Assembly (NCBI RefSeq): GCF_005490985.1
Contig: NZ_CP027869.1
Location: 1,860,001 to 1,924,000, forward strand
Direction of reading: 5' to 3'
DNA from: Curtobacterium sp. SGAir0471
Lineage (GTDB): Bacteria; Actinomycetota; Actinomycetes; Actinomycetales; Microbacteriaceae
Length of the DNA: 64,000 bases
Shown here: positions 20,489-31,481 of the stretch, in pieces
Layout: each line of letters begins with the position of its first letter
How positions within the stretch are numbered: the first letter of the stretch is position 1
The notes under the pieces: model-generated
Databases searched by the model: none
Told to the model about the DNA's origin: nothing
What the model saw: only the letters and a program-made list of their open reading frames with translations
Program-made: the position numbers and the translations under genes

Positions 20489-20579
20489 CGCGAGACGCCG
20501 GCGTCGGGTCCGCGCCGTCGGGTCCGCGAGACGCCGGCGTCGGGTCCGCGCCGTCGGGTCCGCGAGACGCCGGCGTCGA
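20489..20579 (+). repeat. 36-bp tandem repeat, two full copies plus a partial
   Basis: Units begin CGCGAGACGCCGGCGTCGGG at 20489, 20525 and 20561, an exact 36-bp period. Each contains the small palindrome GAGACGCCGGCGTC. The tract forms the left flank of the GGATCC-centred palindrome at 20602-20629, in the 458-bp DUF885-polA gap. No gene is visible there. Confidence 0.85.
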
Positions 20580-20601
20580 GGCGGGACGCCCCCTTCTGAG
20601 C

Positions 20602-20716
20602 GGAACGCCGTCGGATCCGGCGGCGTCTCGGCGCCAGCACGGCGTCTCGGAGCCAGCACGGCGTCTCGGGGTCAATACGGCGTCTCGGGGTCAGTACGGC
20701 GTCTGGGCGCCAGCAT
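20602..20716 (+). repeat. GGATCC-centred palindrome followed by five 19-bp direct repeats
   Basis: A 28-bp imperfect palindrome centred on GGATCC (20602-20629) runs into five units of 19 bp (20622-20716). The consensus is GGCGTCTCGGNGNCANNAC, e.g. GGCGTCTCGGCGCCAGCAC. The repeats are contiguous, without spacers. A second locus with the same 19-bp period and the same palindrome lies at 31323-31481. Confidence 0.85.
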
Positions 20717-20732
20717 GGCGTGAAGTGACGGA

Positions 20733-20782
20733 CGACGGACGGGAGGCACGGTGCCGGCTGGCACCGTGCCTCCCGTCCGTCG
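20733..20782 (-). terminator. Palindromic repeat (family A), terminator of polA
   Basis: A perfect 23-bp stem (20733-20755 with 20760-20782) closes a GGCT tetraloop, about 100 bases beyond the polA stop. It is the longest copy of the dispersed palindrome. Confidence 0.75.
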
Positions 20783-20883
20783 CGTGGTCACGTCGCGACC
20801 CGCAGCGCTCAGGTCCGCAGCGCCCAGGTCCGCTGCGGTCAGGTCCGCTGCGCTCAGTTCCGCAGCGCGCGGTCCCGCGGCGC

Positions 20884-23556
20884 TCAGTGCGCCGCGGCCT
20901 CCCAGTTCGGGCCGACGCCGACGGAGACGTCGAGCGGGACGCTCAGCTCGGCGGCCGCCCCCATCCGCGTCCGCAGGATCTCCTCGACGCGCTCCTGTTC
21001 GCCGGGGGCGACCTCGAGGATCAGTTCGTCGTGCACCTGGAGCAGCAGGTGCGACTCGAGCGAGCCCTCGCGCAGGTCCTCGTCGACACCGAGCATCGCG
21101 ATCTTCATGATGTCGGCTGCCGAGCCCTGGATCGGCGCGTTCAACGCGGCGCGCTCGGCGTTCTCGCGCAGCACGCGGTTCGGGCTCTTCAGGTCGGGGA
21201 AGGGACGACGGCGACCGAAGATCGTCTCGGTGTAGCCGTCCTCGCGGGCCTGCTCGACGACGCCCCGGAGGTAGTCGCGCACGGCGCCGAACCGGGCGAA
21301 GTACTCGTTCATGAGCGTCCGGGCCTCGGACTGCTCGATGCGCAGCTGCTTCGACAGGCCGAACGGGCTGAGGCCGTACGCCAGGCCGTACGACATGGCC
21401 TTGACCTTGGTGCGCATCTCGGGCGTCACGTCGGCCGGCTCGACCGAGAAGACGCGGGCGCCGACGAAGCGGTGCAGGTCCTCGCCCTCGTTGAAGGCCT
21501 GGATGAGCCCGGGGTCGCCGGACAGGTGCGCCATGATGCGCATCTCGATCTGCGAGTAGTCGGCGGTGACGAGCGTCGTGTACGGCTCGGCGACCGCGAA
21601 GGCCGACCGGATGCGGCGCCCGACGGCGGTCTTCACCGGGATGTTCTGCAGGTTCGGGTCGGTCGACGAGACGCGGCCCGTGCTCGTGCCGGTCTGCTCG
21701 TAGCGGGTGTGGATGCGCCCGTCGACGACCGCGGCGTCGAGCGTGTCGACGATCTGCCGGAGCTTCGTCGCGTCTCGGTGCTGCAGCAGCAGGCCGAGGA
21801 ACGGGTGCGGGTGCTGCTCCTGCAGGTCCGCGAGGCTCGCGGCGTCGGTCGAGAAGCCCGTCTTCGTCTTGCGGGTCTTCGGCATCGCGAGCTCGGTGAA
21901 GAGGACCTCCTGCAGCTGCTTCGGCGAGCCGAGGTTCACCTCGTGCCCGATCTCGGCGAAGGCCTGCTGCGCGAGTTCGGCGGCCCGCTCCCCCAGGTCG
22001 TGCGACAGCCCGGTCAGCACGGGCCGGTCGATGCCGACGCCGATGGTCTCCATGCCCGCGAGCACCGGGACGAGCGGCAGCTCGATCGTGTCGAGCACAC
22101 GGAGCGAGGACTCGTCGACCCGTGAGCGCAGCGCGGTGTCGACGCGCAGGACGTACCAGGCGTGCACGCCGACGTTCACCGGCTCGGTCTCGGGGACGAG
22201 CTGGTTCGGGTCGGCAGTCGGCAGTTCCTCGCCGAGTTCCTGGTAGACGAGGTCGGCGAGCGGCTGCCCCTGCTTGCCCGGCTGTGCGATCCATCCGGTG
22301 ATCCGAGCGTCGCCGGCGATGCCGTTCACGGTGATGCCGACCGTGCCGAGGGCCTTGATCGCGGCCTTGGCGTCGTGGAAGTGCTTCGGGGCGTCGGAGG
22401 CGAACCACGCCGCGAGCTGCTCGTAGTCCTTCGCGCCGCTGCCACCGGGCACCAGGACGGCGTCGTCGTGGGTGGCGATGCCGATCGCGCTGAGCCGGCC
22501 GTCGATGACCTCGACCGCGACGCCGAACCCGTTCTCGGCGTCGTTCGCGCCCTTGCGCTCGAGCCAGTAGCCGAGCTCCTCGTCGATGACCGTCGTCACC
22601 TTCGGCGGGGTGGGGGCGCCGTTGTCGACCGAACCGGGGGCGTCGGCGGCCTCGCTCGGCTCGCCCGTGCCCGCCACCTTGAACACACGGTCGAGCAGGG
22701 TGCGGAACTGCAGCTTCGCGAAGAGGTCGCGCACCGCCTGCTCGTCGAGCGGTCGCAGCGCGACGTCGCCGGGGCCCACGGGCAGCTCGACGTCGTTCAC
22801 GAGCCGGTTGAGCCTGCGGTTCCGGATCGCCCGGTCCTTCTGCTCGCGCAGGTTGTTGCCGACGACGCCCTTGATCTCGTCGGCGTGCTCGAGCACCCCG
22901 TCGAGCGAACCGTACGCGGTGATCCACTTCACCGCGGTCTTCTCGCCGACCTTGTCGATGCCGATCAGGTTGTCGCTGGTCTCCCCCACGAGGGCGGCGA
23001 TGTCCGGGTACTGGTGCGGCTCGATGCCGTAGCGCTCGTACACCTTGTCGCGGTCGTAGCGGGTGAGCTCGGAGACGCCGCGCACCGAGGGGTAGAGCAG
23101 CGTCACGTCGTCGTTGACGAGCTGGATGGAGTCGCGGTCACCGGAGACGACGTAGACCTGGTAGCCCTGCTCGGACCCCTGGCGGGCGAGGGTCGCGAGG
23201 ATGTCGTCGGCCTCGTAGTCCTCCTTCGTGACCGTCGTGATGCCCATCGCCTCGAGCGCCTGCTGCAGGAGCGGGATCTGGCCCTTGAACTCCGGCGGGG
23301 TCTCGGATCGGGTGCCCTTGTAGTCCTCGTACTCACGCGTGCGGAAGGAGAACCGGGAGATGTCGAACGCGACCGCCAGGTGGGTCGGCTTCTCGCGCTG
23401 GAGGAGCATGAGCAGCATCGAGATGAAGCCGTGGATGGCGTTCGTGTGCTGCCCCTCGCGGTTCACGAAGCTGTCGACCGGGAGCGCGTAGAAGGCCCGG
23501 AAGGCGAGCGAGTGGCCGTCGATGACCATGAGGGTAGGCTTTGCGGAGTCCGACAC
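20884..23556 (-). CDS. polA: DNA polymerase I
   Basis: PolA fills gaps in repair and removes Okazaki primers. This 890-residue protein has the N-terminal 5' nuclease (LMVIDGHSLAFRAFYALP; EADDILATLARQG; SGDRDSIQLVNDDV), a central exonuclease-like domain, and the polymerase domain (VTADYSQIEMRIMAHLSGD; NEGEDLHRFVGARVF; LLQVHDELILEV). The central domain lacks a clear DxE exo I motif (it reads FGVAVEVIDG), so proofreading is probably lost, as in many actinobacteria. The GTG start at 23556 lies 6 bases after a TAGGCT -10 element. A family A hairpin follows the gene. Confidence 0.96.
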   Translation of the reverse strand: MSDSAKPTLMVIDGHSLAFRAFYALPVDSFVNREGQHTNAIHGFISMLLMLLQREKPTHLAVAFDISRFSFRTREYEDYKGTRSETPPEFKGQIPLLQQALEAMGITTVTKEDYEADDILATLARQGSEQGYQVYVVSGDRDSIQLVNDDVTLLYPSVRGVSELTRYDRDKVYERYGIEPHQYPDIAALVGETSDNLIGIDKVGEKTAVKWITAYGSLDGVLEHADEIKGVVGNNLREQKDRAIRNRRLNRLVNDVELPVGPGDVALRPLDEQAVRDLFAKLQFRTLLDRVFKVAGTGEPSEAADAPGSVDNGAPTPPKVTTVIDEELGYWLERKGANDAENGFGVAVEVIDGRLSAIGIATHDDAVLVPGGSGAKDYEQLAAWFASDAPKHFHDAKAAIKALGTVGITVNGIAGDARITGWIAQPGKQGQPLADLVYQELGEELPTADPNQLVPETEPVNVGVHAWYVLRVDTALRSRVDESSLRVLDTIELPLVPVLAGMETIGVGIDRPVLTGLSHDLGERAAELAQQAFAEIGHEVNLGSPKQLQEVLFTELAMPKTRKTKTGFSTDAASLADLQEQHPHPFLGLLLQHRDATKLRQIVDTLDAAVVDGRIHTRYEQTGTSTGRVSSTDPNLQNIPVKTAVGRRIRSAFAVAEPYTTLVTADYSQIEMRIMAHLSGDPGLIQAFNEGEDLHRFVGARVFSVEPADVTPEMRTKVKAMSYGLAYGLSPFGLSKQLRIEQSEARTLMNEYFARFGAVRDYLRGVVEQAREDGYTETIFGRRRPFPDLKSPNRVLRENAERAALNAPIQGSAADIMKIAMLGVDEDLREGSLESHLLLQVHDELILEVAPGEQERVEEILRTRMGAAAELSVPLDVSVGVGPNWEAAAH

Positions 23557-24569: not shown

Positions 24570-24600
24570 ACGCTCTGCCGCGCCGTCGGCGCCCCGTCTC

Positions 24601-24715
24601 CGACATCGCGCTCGTCGTTCGACGAGTGCGATGTCGCACGGTGCACCCGCATCCGATGCAAGCGCATCGTCCGACACCGCGCGCGTCGTTCGACCGGTGC
24701 GATGTCGCACGGTGC
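24601..24715 (+). repeat. Twin 36-bp palindromic elements with a shared 11-bp flank
   Basis: Copy 1 (24601-24636) is a 17-bp stem around a TT loop, with one G-T wobble; its outer arm is CGACATCGC/GCGATGTCG. Copy 2 (24672-24707) has the same layout with three unpaired positions. Both are followed by CACGGTGC. Their starts are 71 bp apart. They lie in the 293-bp GNAT-ANTAR gap, which holds no gene. Confidence 0.85.
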
Positions 24716-24747
24716 CCTTGCGCCGACGGTCGCCTCGGTCGGGACGC

Positions 24748-24784
24748 GGAGAGCGCCGCCGGACCGGGTCCGGCGGCGCTCTCC
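24748..24784 (-). terminator. Terminator of the ANTAR regulator gene
   Basis: A perfect 18-bp inverted repeat (24748-24765 with 24767-24784) of arm GGAGAGCGCCGCCGGACC lies 22 bases beyond the gene stop. It is unrelated in sequence to family A. Confidence 0.85.
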
Positions 24785-24805
24785 ACGTGAGCGAGTGGGG
24801 GCTCG

Positions 24806-25411
24806 TTACTTCTTGGCGCTGAGCTGCTCGATGATCGCCTTCGCGACGTCGTGCATGGTCAGGCGGCGGTCCATCGACGCCTTCTGGATCCAACGGAACG
24901 CCTCGGGCTCGGTGAGGCCCATCTTCTCGTTGAGCAGGCCCTTGGCGCGGTCGACGAGCTTGCGGGTCTCGAAGCGCTCGACGAGGTCGGCGACCTCGGC
25001 TTCGAGCGTGATGATCTGCTGGTGGCGCGAGAGGGCGATCTCGATCGCGGGCAGCAGGTCGTTCGGGGTGAAGGGCTTCACGACGTAGGCGAGGGCACCG
25101 GCCTCGGTCGCGCGCTCGACGAGGTCCTTCTGGCTGAACGCCGTGAGGAGGACCACCGGAGCGATGTGGTTCTTGGAGAGCTTCTCGGCAGCGGAGATGC
25201 CGTCGAGCTGCGGCATCTTGACGTCCATGACGACGAGGTCCGGGCGGAGGTCGGTCGCGAGCTGGACGGCGGTCTCGCCGTCGCCGGCCTCGCCGACCAC
25301 GTCGAACCCGTTGTCGCGGAGGATCTCGACGATGTCGAGACGGATGAGCGACTCGTCCTCGGCGACGACGACGCGACGCGGTGCTGCTGGGGTTGCTTCT
25401 GTGTCACTCAC
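24806..25411 (-). CDS. pdtaR: ANTAR-domain response regulator (PdtaR-like)
   Basis: This 201-residue protein has a receiver domain (residues 12-123) with acidic pocket AEDE, phosphoacceptor D63 in VVMDVKMPQLDG, T90 and K112. A short coiled coil (124-150) and a C-terminal ANTAR RNA-binding domain (151-201, RKLVDRAKGLLNEKMGLTE) follow. The best-known relative is mycobacterial PdtaR (Rv1626), which is phosphorylated by PdtaS and binds RNA to control translation or antitermination. No cognate kinase is adjacent, so it is an orphan here. The GTG start at 25411 follows a TAGGCT -10 by 7 bases. Upstream lies a 54-bp repeat array derived from tRNA-Leu. Confidence 0.93.
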   Translation of the reverse strand: MSDTEATPAAPRRVVVAEDESLIRLDIVEILRDNGFDVVGEAGDGETAVQLATDLRPDLVVMDVKMPQLDGISAAEKLSKNHIAPVVLLTAFSQKDLVERATEAGALAYVVKPFTPNDLLPAIEIALSRHQQIITLEAEVADLVERFETRKLVDRAKGLLNEKMGLTEPEAFRWIQKASMDRRLTMHDVAKAIIEQLSAKK

Positions 25412-25418
25412 GACCGAG

Positions 25419-25424
25419 AGCCTA
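25419..25424 (-). promoter_or_regulatory. -10 element (TAGGCT) of the ANTAR regulator, leaderless type
   Basis: TAGGCT ends 7 bases before the GTG at 25411. It sits between the gene and the tRNA-derived array, so the gene can be transcribed without the array; readthrough from the tRNA promoter remains possible. Confidence 0.5.
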
Positions 25425-25456
25425 CTAGACGGAGCGCGCGGCTTCCGTCAGCTGTG

Positions 25457-25726
25457 TACGAGTGGCGGGACGCTCCGTGTGCGCAGCCCCGCACGCCGTG
25501 AGCGACCTTGTACGAGTGGCGGGACGCTCCGTGTGCGCAGCCCCGCCCGCCGTGAGCGACCTTGTACGAGTGGCGGGACGCTCGGTGTGCGCAGCCCCGC
25601 ACGCCGTGAGCGACCTTGTACGAGTGGCAGGACGCTCCGTGTGCGCAGCCCCGCACGCCGTGAGCGACCGTGTACGAGTGGCGGGACGCTCCGTGTGCGC
25701 AGCCCCGCCCGCCGTGAGCGACCTTG
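25457..25726 (-). repeat. Five 54-bp tandem repeats derived from the tRNA-Leu 3' end
   Basis: Units begin at 25457, 25511, 25565, 25619 and 25673, an exact 54-bp period, and the tRNA itself continues the register at 25727. On the plus strand each unit keeps TACGAGTGGCGGGAC (acceptor 3' strand and T-stem) and CCCGCACGCCGTGAG (T-stem and variable arm), as in the tRNA. The T-loop part is replaced by about 16 other bases and CGACCTTG is added. Copies differ by only one or two bases, so the array is young or homogenised. There are no spacers, so it is not CRISPR. It fills the 315-bp tRNA-ANTAR gap. Confidence 0.95.
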
Positions 25727-25807
25727 TACGAGTGGCGGGACTCGAACCCGCACGCCGTGAGGCAGAGCATTTTGAGTGCCCCGTGTCTACCGTTCCACCA
25801 CACTCGC
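25727..25807 (-). tRNA. tRNA-Leu (anticodon CAA)
   Basis: The minus strand folds as a class II tRNA. The acceptor is GCGAGTG with CACTCGT and discriminator A; the D arm is TGGAACGGTAGACAC; the anticodon stem GGGCA/TGCTC encloses the 7-base loop CTCAAAA, giving anticodon CAA for UUG codons. A long variable arm (GCC/GGC stem) and T arm GCGGG-TTCGAGT-CCCGC follow. CCA is not encoded. The first acceptor pair would be G-U. Its 3' half is the source of the neighbouring 54-bp repeats. Confidence 0.93.
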
Positions 25808-25816
25808 GAGGGCACC

Positions 25817-25822
25817 AGGCTA
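25817..25822 (-). promoter_or_regulatory. Candidate -10 element (TAGCCT) of tRNA-Leu
   Basis: TAGCCT lies 9 bases upstream of the first tRNA base, in the 41-bp gap after the MOSC gene. No clear -35 was seen. Confidence 0.4.
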
Positions 25823-25848
25823 GCAGGACCGCCAGCCGGCCCCGGTCG

Positions 25849-26406
25849 TCACACCGGCTCCAGCGGCTGCGGCTCCCCCGCCGGCAGCTCGACGCGGACG
25901 GCGTCGCCGGCACGGACCACACCGCCCGTCACGACCACGCCCATCACACCGCCCTTGCGCTCCACGGTGCCGTCCTCGGCCCGACCGAGGACCGCGCGCA
26001 GCAGCCCGGGGTCGAAGTCGTTGATCTGCTGGCACGGGTTCCGGAGCCCCGTCACGCGGACGCACGCCTCGTCGCCGAGGTGGAGCAGCGTTCCCGTCGG
26101 CAGCCCGAGCAGGTCGACACCGCGCGTGGTGACGTTCTCGCCCATGTCCCCGGGGACGACCACGTGCCCGGCCGCTGCGACCTCGTCGAACACCTCGGCG
26201 TGCAGCAGGTGGACCTGCCGCAGGTTCGGCTGCGAGGGGTCGCGGGCGACGCGCGACCGGTGCTGGACGGTGGTGCCGGCGTGCGCGTCGCCCTCGACAC
26301 CCCACCCCGCGACCAGGGTGATCTCCTCGACGACGGGCTTGCTGAACCGGTGCTCGGTGTCGCGGGCCACCGCGACGATCCGACCGGGCTCCTGAATCGC
26401 GCTCAC
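25849..26406 (-). CDS. MOSC domain-containing protein
   Basis: This 185-residue protein is a stand-alone MOSC (molybdenum cofactor sulfurase C-terminal) domain of the YiiM-like type. Visible features are GWGVEGDAHAGTTVQHRS near residue 34, PGDMGENVTTRGVDLLGLP, and the conserved cysteine motif RNPCQQINDF. Such proteins bind molybdenum cofactor and take part in sulfur transfer or detoxifying reductions; the precise role is not predictable. Its GTG start at 26406 overlaps the histidine kinase TGA (GTGA), so it is the third gene of a two-component operon. Confidence 0.9.
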   Translation of the reverse strand: MSAIQEPGRIVAVARDTEHRFSKPVVEEITLVAGWGVEGDAHAGTTVQHRSRVARDPSQPNLRQVHLLHAEVFDEVAAAGHVVVPGDMGENVTTRGVDLLGLPTGTLLHLGDEACVRVTGLRNPCQQINDFDPGLLRAVLGRAEDGTVERKGGVMGVVVTGGVVRAGDAVRVELPAGEPQPLEPV

Positions 26407-27977
26407 GTCCCCATCGTGGCAGACGCGGGCGCCCGACCGACAGTCCGGTCCGCTCCCGGTACGGGGTCGACCGACCGGCCGGCGACCGGCAGGCGGAGCA
26501 CGAACCGCGCACCGCCGAGCGTGCCGTCGTCCCCGTGGACGAGGGTGCCGTCGTGGGCGGTCGCGATGCCGCGGGCGATCGGCAGACCGAGCCCGGCGCC
26601 GCCGGACCGGACGTCGCGGGAGCCCTCGAGCCTGACGAGCCGGTCGAACACCCGCTGCCGGTCCACGAGGGGGATCCCGGGTCCGTCGTCCTCCACCACG
26701 AGCACCGCCTCGCCGTCGTCCTCGTCGAGCGTCACGCGCACCGTCCCCGTCCCGCCGGTGGCGCGTGCAGCGTTGTCGACGAGGTTGCCGAGCACCTGGG
26801 CCAGCCGGTCCGGATCGACCTCGGCGACGACGGCGTCCGAGGGCAGCTCGGTGTGCAGGGCGATGCCCGGCAGCCGGAGCTCGAGCCGGTCGACCTCGGC
26901 ACGCAGCCACGGGACGAGGTCGGTCGTCCGTCGGTCGAGGGCGATGCCGCGGTCGAGCCGCGCCATCGTGAGCATGTCGTCGACGAGCCGGGCCGCCCGG
27001 TCCGCCTGGCGCACGACGTGCACGGCGAGCACCTCGGTCGTCGCCGGGTCGTCGCCGCCGCTCCGGACGAGGGTGTCCGCTGCTGCGCGGACCCCGGCGA
27101 CGGGGGTGCGCAGTTCGTGCGCGGCGTCGGACAGGAAGCCGCGCACTCGTTCCTCGGCGGCCACGGCCTGGGCCTCCGCGCCCTCGACGGCGTCGAGCAT
27201 CTCGTCGAACGCGACGGCCACGCGGCCGATCTCGGTGTCGGTCCGTGCGGGCCGGAGACGCCGACCACGGTCGCCGTCGGCGATGGACCGCGCCGTCGCG
27301 GTGACCTCGTCGAGCGGGCGCAGCGCCCGCCGGACGACCAGGACGACGCCGACGACGGCGACCCCGAGGAACGCCGCGGAGGCTCCGCCCATGACCCACG
27401 CGAGCTGCGCGAGGGTCTCCTGCACGTCGCGCGTCCCGGCGGTGAGGGTGATGCGGGTGCCGTCGTCGAGGACGGACCGGAGCGTGAGGACGCCGTCGTC
27501 GTAACGCACGCTGGACGACACGACCGACGCGCCCGACGTCGCCGCGCCGGACGCGGAGCCGGACGACCCGGCGGACGACGACCCGGCCGACGACGACCCG
27601 GGGCCCGTCGACCCGGAGGACCGCTCGCGCGCTGCCGGTCCCGGCAAGCCTCCGGGGTCCGGCGGCCCGGAGCGCAGCTGGTCCGGGGTCGGACCGGCCT
27701 CGACGGCGGCGCCGTCGGGCTGCACGATCCGCACCGAGAGCCCCTGCGCCGACAACCGGTCGGCGAGGTCGTCCGCGTCGAGCACCCCCACGAGCGCGGC
27801 GGCTGCGGCAGCCCGGTCCCGCAGGCGGTCCTCGACCTGGGCGCGGAGCCGTGCGCCGAGCACCGCCTCGACCGCGACGACGAGCCCGGCCAGCAGCACC
27901 GCGAGCAGCACGAGCACCGCCACGACGGTGCGGAGGCGCAGGGACGTGGTGCGCAGCCGACCGCCCGCGGGCATCAC
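26403..27977 (-). CDS. Two-component sensor histidine kinase
   Basis: This 524-residue membrane kinase has two transmembrane segments (about 17-40 and 194-216) flanking an extracytoplasmic region. A HAMP domain follows (217-270), then the HisKA domain with H287 in SDAAHELRTPV and the ATPase domain with N402 in LVDNAARATGG, DDGPGIP and GAGLGLPIARG. Residues about 120-157 of the sensor region are an unusual Ser/Gly/Ala-rich stretch. It starts at GTG 27977 (or ATG 27974), overlapping the stop of its partner regulator. The signal is unknown; a divergently encoded repeat-rich exported protein is a plausible target. Confidence 0.92.
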   Translation of the reverse strand: MMPAGGRLRTTSLRLRTVVAVLVLLAVLLAGLVVAVEAVLGARLRAQVEDRLRDRAAAAAALVGVLDADDLADRLSAQGLSVRIVQPDGAAVEAGPTPDQLRSGPPDPGGLPGPAARERSSGSTGPGSSSAGSSSAGSSGSASGAATSGASVVSSSVRYDDGVLTLRSVLDDGTRITLTAGTRDVQETLAQLAWVMGGASAAFLGVAVVGVVLVVRRALRPLDEVTATARSIADGDRGRRLRPARTDTEIGRVAVAFDEMLDAVEGAEAQAVAAEERVRGFLSDAAHELRTPVAGVRAAADTLVRSGGDDPATTEVLAVHVVRQADRAARLVDDMLTMARLDRGIALDRRTTDLVPWLRAEVDRLELRLPGIALHTELPSDAVVAEVDPDRLAQVLGNLVDNAARATGGTGTVRVTLDEDDGEAVLVVEDDGPGIPLVDRQRVFDRLVRLEGSRDVRSGGAGLGLPIARGIATAHDGTLVHGDDGTLGGARFVLRLPVAGRSVDPVPGADRTVGRAPASATMGT

Positions 27978-31322: not shown

Positions 31323-31481
31323 GACGCCGCCGTCCCGGTGAGACACCGCCGTCTCAGTGCGACGCCGCCGTCCCGGTGAGACGCCGCCGTCCCGGTGAGA
31401 CACCGCCGTCCCGGTGAGACACCGCCGCCCCGGTGAGGCGCCGCCAATCCGACGAGACGGCGCCGGATCCGGCGGCGTCTC
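31323..31481 (+). repeat. Seven 19-bp direct repeats ending in a GGATCC-centred palindrome
   Basis: Seven contiguous 19-bp units (31323-31455; consensus GACRCCGCCGTCCCGGTGA) lead into a 28-bp palindrome centred on GGATCC (31454-31481, one mismatch). After it a degenerate unit GTGCGTCTCGGGGCCACGC resembles the units of the 20602-20716 locus. The tract lies in the 401-bp pyk-VIT1 gap, which shows no gene. The period and palindrome match the other locus, but the variable parts differ. Confidence 0.85.

Follow-up and report, generated by a model that had tools for sequence, protein, structure and literature searches.

A genus-wide, fast-changing tandem repeat with conserved tRNA-like parts in the tail of tRNA-Leu(CAA) of Curtobacterium

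Minisatellite (VNTR) loci consist of head-to-tail copies that are homogeneous within a genome and variable in number. In Escherichia coli MG1655 RtT repeats stand behind tRNA-Tyr genes, one unit behind tyrT and three behind tyrV: the units end in CTTCCCCCACCACCA like tRNA-Tyr, their 5'-side T-stem strand is kept and the T-loop is replaced by a long insert. The 3' end of the annotated RttR RNA (171 nt; locus position 1567) coincides exactly with the tRNA-like CCA end of the unit, both being position 1435 in the turned coordinates of the locus. To our knowledge, the function of the E. coli RtT repeats is still unsettled. Passages of PMC4986893 describe RtT RNA as released from tRNA transcripts and link it to amino acid limitation. 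Fragments of tRNA genes are also known from another context: displaced ones at genomic islands are the subject of the Islander paper (PMC4383910), and partial tRNA genes that of PMC9897764.

The locus described here lies in a stretch of 64,000 nucleotides of Curtobacterium sp. SGAir0471 (the window; all positions are counted from its first letter). A first-pass annotation had reported five 54-bp tandem units after the 3' end of tRNA-Leu(CAA), which is borne out by TRF (period 54 bp, 5.3 copies, 25455-25741, 96% matches) and by the positions of the sequence blocks: five head-to-tail 54-bp units occupy 25456-25725 on the minus strand, directly 3' of the tRNA gene. The features are as follows.

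25726..25807, minus strand: tRNA-Leu(CAA) gene, parent of the repeat (tRNA call; Rfam 53.1 bits)
25672..25725, minus strand: unit 1, adjoining the tRNA (linker 25719-25725, 5' tRNA block 25704-25718, insert 25688-25703, 3' tRNA block 25672-25687)
25618..25671, minus strand: unit 2
25564..25617, minus strand: unit 3
25510..25563, minus strand: unit 4
25456..25509, minus strand: unit 5
25412..25455, minus strand: tail after the array, 44 nt, containing TCTAGTAGGCT; nearly the same form precedes the next gene in most relatives
24806..25411, minus strand: next downstream gene, encoding an ANTAR-domain response regulator; its GTG start follows the -10-like motif closely

In the tail, TCTAGTAGGCT resembles a -10 region and may serve the downstream gene as such, and by its look the ANTAR gene would be leaderless.

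The order within a unit is a 7-nt linker, the 5' tRNA block CTCACGGCGTGCGGG, a 16-nt insert and the 3' tRNA block GTCCCGCCACTCGTAC. As read from the tRNA, the 5' block comprises the variable arm from its loop through its 3' strand, followed by the 5' T-stem strand, and the 3' block begins with the final two T-loop bases, continues through the 3' strands of T-stem and acceptor and closes with the discriminator and one C; the tRNA gene itself encodes the discriminator A and one C, and CCA is not encoded. The replacement of the T-loop by about 16 new bases had been noticed at first sight, and indeed the insert takes the place of TTCGA of the tRNA, the GT preceding CCCGC being retained. The sequence TACGAGTGGCRGGAC starts at 25457, 25511, 25565, 25619 and 25673 and, within the tRNA, at 25727, every step being 54; CCCGCNCGCCGTGAG starts at 25488, 25542, 25596, 25650 and 25704 and, within the tRNA, at 25747, with a final step of 43. 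The exact 54-bp register with the tRNA that was claimed for both blocks therefore holds for the 3' block, and the 5' block lies 43 bp from its counterpart because the T-loop has 7 nt in the tRNA and 18 nt stand there in the unit. The five units differ from the commonest unit sequence at 1, 2, 1, 1 and 0 positions. The two exact 15-mers occur five and four times in the window (both strands), always within the array or the tRNA, and the array is present once in the 3.53-Mb one-contig genome; the likeness to the tRNA is thus not due to chance.

The same annotation named the tyrT/rtT repeats of E. coli as the nearest parallel, and the comparison holds as an analogy. Like RtT (Rfam RF00391), the Curtobacterium units lie directly 3' of a tRNA on the same strand, are arranged in tandem, end like the tRNA, and keep the T-stem strands and the 3' acceptor strand around an insert that replaces the T-loop. 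Unlike in Curtobacterium, where the units have 54 nt and a 16-nt insert, the E. coli units measure 178 nt (three) and 175 nt (one), contain a long insert, are predicted to fold with a 10-bp stem, and encode CCA, which the Curtobacterium units do not. The RF00391 model gave four matches in the E. coli locus, used as a control, and none in two Curtobacterium loci (L009 and L293) at E up to 10. Since the architecture is alike but the model finds no match, the Curtobacterium array is an analogue of RtT and not a member of RF00391. By this analogy, it may also work like RtT.

The locus is present in 65 of the 66 Curtobacterium genomes searched, and all 65 copies were extracted. Units are found in 26 of them and none in 39, so that copy number among relatives, a comparison that the first-pass annotation had proposed, varies from 0 to 7 with the tRNA intact: 14 genomes have one unit, four have two, four have three, one has four, two have five and one has seven. 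These counts rest on a threshold of 4 mismatches in the 16-nt 3' block and comprise 55 unit calls, decayed ones included; the seventh unit of G051 is a 17-nt fragment, and the single unit counted in G003 is too low a figure because its array spans a contig break, with one unit on one contig and at least two more on another. Read by eye, five of the 39 genomes scored as having none (G006, G009, G013, G019, G063) contain remnants of units. Because the units were picked by a block threshold, decayed copies are missed and the conservation of the blocks is somewhat inflated. The occurrence of the same kind of units at the orthologous place in 26 genomes makes an assembly artefact unlikely.

Presence of the array is scattered over the genus. 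A tree of the 65 genomes, in which the deep branches are weak and some branches long, requires at least 18 changes between presence and absence, and eight genomes with a shorter variable arm of the tRNA (CTCTGGCG instead of CTCACGGCG), which form a single clade, carry no units. Unit lengths in other species include 40, 46, 53, 55 and 56, and the insert in place of the T-loop has 15-18 nt among Curtobacterium units. A pattern scan of the species-genome collection returned 22 stretches, 16 of them from Curtobacterium; the other six (Streptomyces, Saccharothrix) were discarded as chance matches, there being no tRNA in those loci. Among the literature matches listed, which cover mostly open papers, there is no report of Curtobacterium arrays of this kind.

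Sequence comparison separates the tRNA-derived parts of the unit from the rest. For linker, 5' block, insert and 3' block, in this order, the mean pairwise p-distance between the first units of 23 genomes is 0.525, 0.091, 0.434 and 0.026; the corresponding values within arrays (46 units) are 0.081, 0.030, 0.064 and 0.019. These distances leave out nine of the 55 unit calls, in which the 5' block was unrecognisable or units were merged: the third unit of G023, three of G051, and all units of G024, G025 and G026. Column diversity of the blocks differs from that of the remaining columns with p of about 1e-8, and for the 5' block alone with p of about 1e-5; both values take columns as independent and are to be read with the choice of units by their blocks, shared ancestry and possible sharing in G039 in mind. 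Two insert columns are invariant too.

The T-loop is replaced in all 46 units that keep both blocks, and a search of the 460 nt downstream of the tRNA gave no canonical T-arm copy in any of the 65 genomes. In addition, the first base of the 5' block does not follow the genome's own tRNA in two cases: G061 has TTCAC in the tRNA and CTCAC in the unit, and G052 has CTCAC in the tRNA and TTCAC in the unit. An exchange through the 5' block would give one product with a spoiled tRNA and another with a canonical T-arm copy. We therefore read the 5' block as probably being under constraint. The 3' block, on the other hand, is one through which turnover may run, and it can thus be refreshed from the tRNA. 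In most multi-unit arrays the same sequence stands behind the tRNA and behind the units, and the units are nearly alike; by these matching flanks and small differences, the tRNA tail is the anchor of what behaves like a tandem repeat. A comparison of G015 (one unit) and G055 (none) illustrates this, as the flank after the unit equals the flank after the tRNA tail, which is what gain or loss of a unit through the 3' block would be expected to leave. Turnover appears fast: G053 and G059 have three and no units at a flank divergence of 3.9%, and copy number differs in 39 of 41 pairs that have a flank divergence below 0.08 and units in at least one member, although these pairs overlap, those with G017 rest on 606 columns, and they are far from 41 independent cases. 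The near-identity of the copies, from which a recent or homogenised array had been proposed, agrees with these data, and they support recent homogenisation together with an origin from the tRNA 3' end.

A second locus of this kind was found in the same genome. Three of its 48 tRNA genes have a downstream copy of their own last 14 bases; that of tRNA-Glu is merely the next tRNA-Glu gene, which leaves Leu(CAA) and Arg(CCT). The tRNA-Arg(CCT) gene (L132, G000:C1:3094528-3094702, outside the window) has two 50-bp tail units upstream of argG, in which the insertion is placed between the T-arm and the acceptor strand. By the T-loop-pair pattern such units (type A) occur in 16 of 66 genus genomes, among which G007 lacks the acceptor part; three further genus genomes match this pattern at tRNA-His, Lys and Leu-TAA. 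Type B units of 64-65 bp, which run from the anticodon arm on, are found in G001, G021, G024 and G036, and in G036 (L348, G036:C10:51729-52697) fourteen tandem 64-bp units combine the anticodon arm, T-arm and acceptor strand of tRNA-Arg(CCT). Acceptor-bearing Arg(CCT) copies thus exist in at least 19 genomes, namely this one and 18 other Curtobacterium. In the type A units the acceptor block has a diversity of 0.102, the linker of 0.378 and the insert of 0.284; that of the T-arm block is 0.000, a zero that is partly built in because the search itself used the T-arm (15 of the 16 type A candidates entered, the decayed G031 being dropped; G007 and G015 were left out). By these sequences, the Arg(CCT) locus repeats the Leu pattern of conserved tRNA parts and variable linker and insert.

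Outside the genus, in other Microbacteriaceae, where the first-pass annotation had suggested looking for the array, 81-bp units, two and one of them, stand behind tRNA-Leu(CAA) of G183 and G114 (L164, L165; both of genus code g50). In these units a small hairpin precedes the retained 3' two thirds of the tRNA. They were seen in two of 30 tRNA calls, the 30 family loci (two or three of them Curtobacterium) coming from 131 matching genomes among 160 searched. A family-wide T-loop-pair search matched 19 of 398 genomes, of which five are Curtobacterium. True 3' copies are present in five of the 14 non-Curtobacterium matches: at tRNA-Ser in G076 and G309, Ala in G446, Leu-TAA in G251 and Arg-TCT in G391, whose stretch holds Ns. 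Judged by its match and its tRNA-Ser, G154 probably has one as well, so that 5 to 6 of 388 other family genomes show true copies at these four kinds of tRNA. The other eight do not read as true copies: four have no tRNA at the match, one rests on a doubtful tRNA call and in three only a T-arm-like stretch follows the tRNA; G137 was likewise rejected as a family case, there being no tRNA in its locus. Partial 3' copies were seen directly behind tRNA-His, Lys, Leu(TAA), Ser, Ala and Arg(TCT) at L256, L266, L268, L318, L321, L322, L324 and L328.

The array is a real, genus-wide and fast-changing tRNA-tail repeat with conserved tRNA-like parts, and its RNA product is putative. The explanation that we tentatively favour, with slightly more doubt than trust, is an RtT-like tandem repeat anchored on the tRNA, with constrained tRNA-like parts, which grows and shrinks via its 3' blocks and is probably a processed trailer of the pre-tRNA. 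Slippage or unequal exchange at the identical 16-nt 3' blocks would add and remove units and leave the tRNA undamaged, and the 5' block, which exchange through the 3' block does not refresh, would be held by selection. Transcription past the tRNA would place the array in the 3' trailer of the pre-tRNA, where the enzymes of tRNA 3' maturation could cleave at every tRNA-like 3' end and set free short RNAs in the manner of E. coli RtT; RNase Z would be the enzyme to expect, given that the gene lacks an encoded CCA. We count against this RtT-like explanation that 39 of 65 genomes have no unit at all, together with the results of the structural tests. RNAalifold predicts for the unit the T-stem and a 4-bp outer helix, yet no compensatory changes were found in the predicted pairs; the covariation score of a possible second hairpin inside the insert was reached by 61 of 500 shuffles and so does not clearly exceed them, and the fold of the complete tRNA-plus-array sequence is no more stable than that of shuffles (z 0.30). 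In a comparison with 60 versions per unit whose linkers and inserts were shuffled, the acceptor strand showed no excess of pairing within the unit, neither for Leu (0.43 vs 0.51; none of 23 first units at p<0.05) nor for Arg (0.67 vs 0.74; none of 18 at p<0.05), and a mimic helix formed by re-pairing of the acceptor strand was therefore rejected. The structural tests are thus neutral or negative, and an RNA role of the units, including the competition for tRNA maturation enzymes suggested in the first-pass annotation, is putative.

One would argue that no function is needed at all, and it is indeed possible, short of likely, that an old partial duplication of the tRNA 3' end became a functionless minisatellite that expands and contracts, whose blocks would owe their apparent conservation only to rewriting by exchange or gene conversion with the tRNA and to decayed copies going unseen. 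Its number of head-to-tail copies varies between relatives as in other VNTR loci, and its patchy presence, the predicted structure lacking compensatory changes and folding like shuffles, and the uncommon AT before CCCGC that tRNA and unit 1 of G039 share are what such a repeat would produce. Exchange through the 5' block, however, should have left canonical T-arm copies, which were seen in none of the 65 genomes, and neither the units of G061 and G052 nor the two invariant insert columns suit this explanation; unlike a VNTR locus in general, the Leu array is anchored on a tRNA gene, and it is mainly the tRNA-derived parts that are conserved between species. That the array codes for a small repetitive protein, comparable to the tpr annotated in E. 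coli tyrV, can hardly be entertained: 54 is a multiple of 3 and several frames are open across the array, but the unit lengths in other species are not multiples of 3 and do not keep the frame. We also consider it very improbable that the array serves at the DNA level as a spacer, terminator or insulator between the transcribed tRNA and the promoter of the ANTAR regulator. It does fill exactly the interval from the tRNA end to the tail that bears the -10-like motif, as the Arg array sits between tRNA-Arg(CCT) and argG where argG follows, but 39 of 65 genomes have no unit, one of them (G054) with 34 nt from the tRNA tail to the next start codon, and no terminator-like site was found on the array strand in 24700-26600.

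Recombination scars at a tRNA integration site had been offered in the first-pass annotation as well, a reading that is not supported at the Leu locus. Such a scar would be a displaced tRNA 3' fragment (attR) of an integrative element that was later amplified in tandem, which we consider unlikely. Like the displaced fragments treated in PMC4383910 and PMC9897764, the unit holds a 3' part that ends at the tRNA end, and the partial copies elsewhere in Microbacteriaceae run from the anticodon arm or the T-arm to that end. Moreover, in G030 a large serine recombinase gene with Resolvase and Recombinase domains (L374:6253-7968) overlaps tRNA-Arg(CCT) with its 3' end from the opposite strand, and in G020 a serine recombinase gene with Recombinase and zinc ribbon domains only is located at the same tRNA; the other four of six Arg-locus proteins scanned have no serine recombinase domains. 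Curtobacterium thus uses tRNA ends as integration sites, as these genes reaching into tRNA-Arg(CCT) show, and integration scars may well account for the single partial copies at other tRNAs. At the Leu site, however, there is no island: no integrase or other element lies between the tRNA and the ANTAR gene in the 64 genomes with a complete interval, which spans at most 402 nt to the gene start, and the unit is not one continuous 3' fragment, as its T-loop is replaced, and is tandem, homogeneous and shared by the genus. Neither did any phage or plasmid record cover 80% of the tRNA-plus-array query, nor a viral pattern scan find the unit junction, nor was a displaced Arg(CCT) 3' end with fewer than 3 mismatches detected in seven genomes. 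A mobile element is nevertheless possible as the distant origin of the Leu array. Viral matches to the Leu tail pattern (45) were rejected, as 43 overlap tRNA-Leu, one tRNA-Gly and one no called tRNA, and so were three to the Arg tail pattern (two overlapping tRNA-Leu, one no called tRNA). The Curtobacterium plasmids H24 and H25 carry a tRNA-Leu-like stretch, 85% and 83% alike over about 80 bases, in which the match stops short of the array.

Returning to the RtT-like tandem repeat, we note that both tRNAs read codons that are rare in the window, UUG making up 0.9% of Leu codons and AGG 1.9% of Arg codons (26 likely genes). It is conceivable, though rather unlikely, that the rare-codon tRNAs of Curtobacterium, Leu-CAA and Arg-CCT, bear selected tail repeats that arose independently of E. 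coli RtT, and that small RNAs with tRNA-like 3' ends cut out of them titrate tRNA-binding enzymes or tRNA-cutting toxins, copy number setting the dose. The 26 genomes with and 39 without the Leu array, together with the second rare-codon locus, form a natural copy-number series for effects on tRNA maturation. They also suggest how a tRNA gene can seed a fast repeat undamaged, namely by turnover through a block identical to its own tail.

Other repeats are present in the window. Two 46-nt repeats (91% alike) lie inside a long imperfect inverted repeat at 24599-24788, and a 22-nt inverted repeat with 95% complementarity is found beside them. Further short minisatellites, with periods of 36, 19, 15 and 19 bp, are located at 20489-20887 and 31323-31465.
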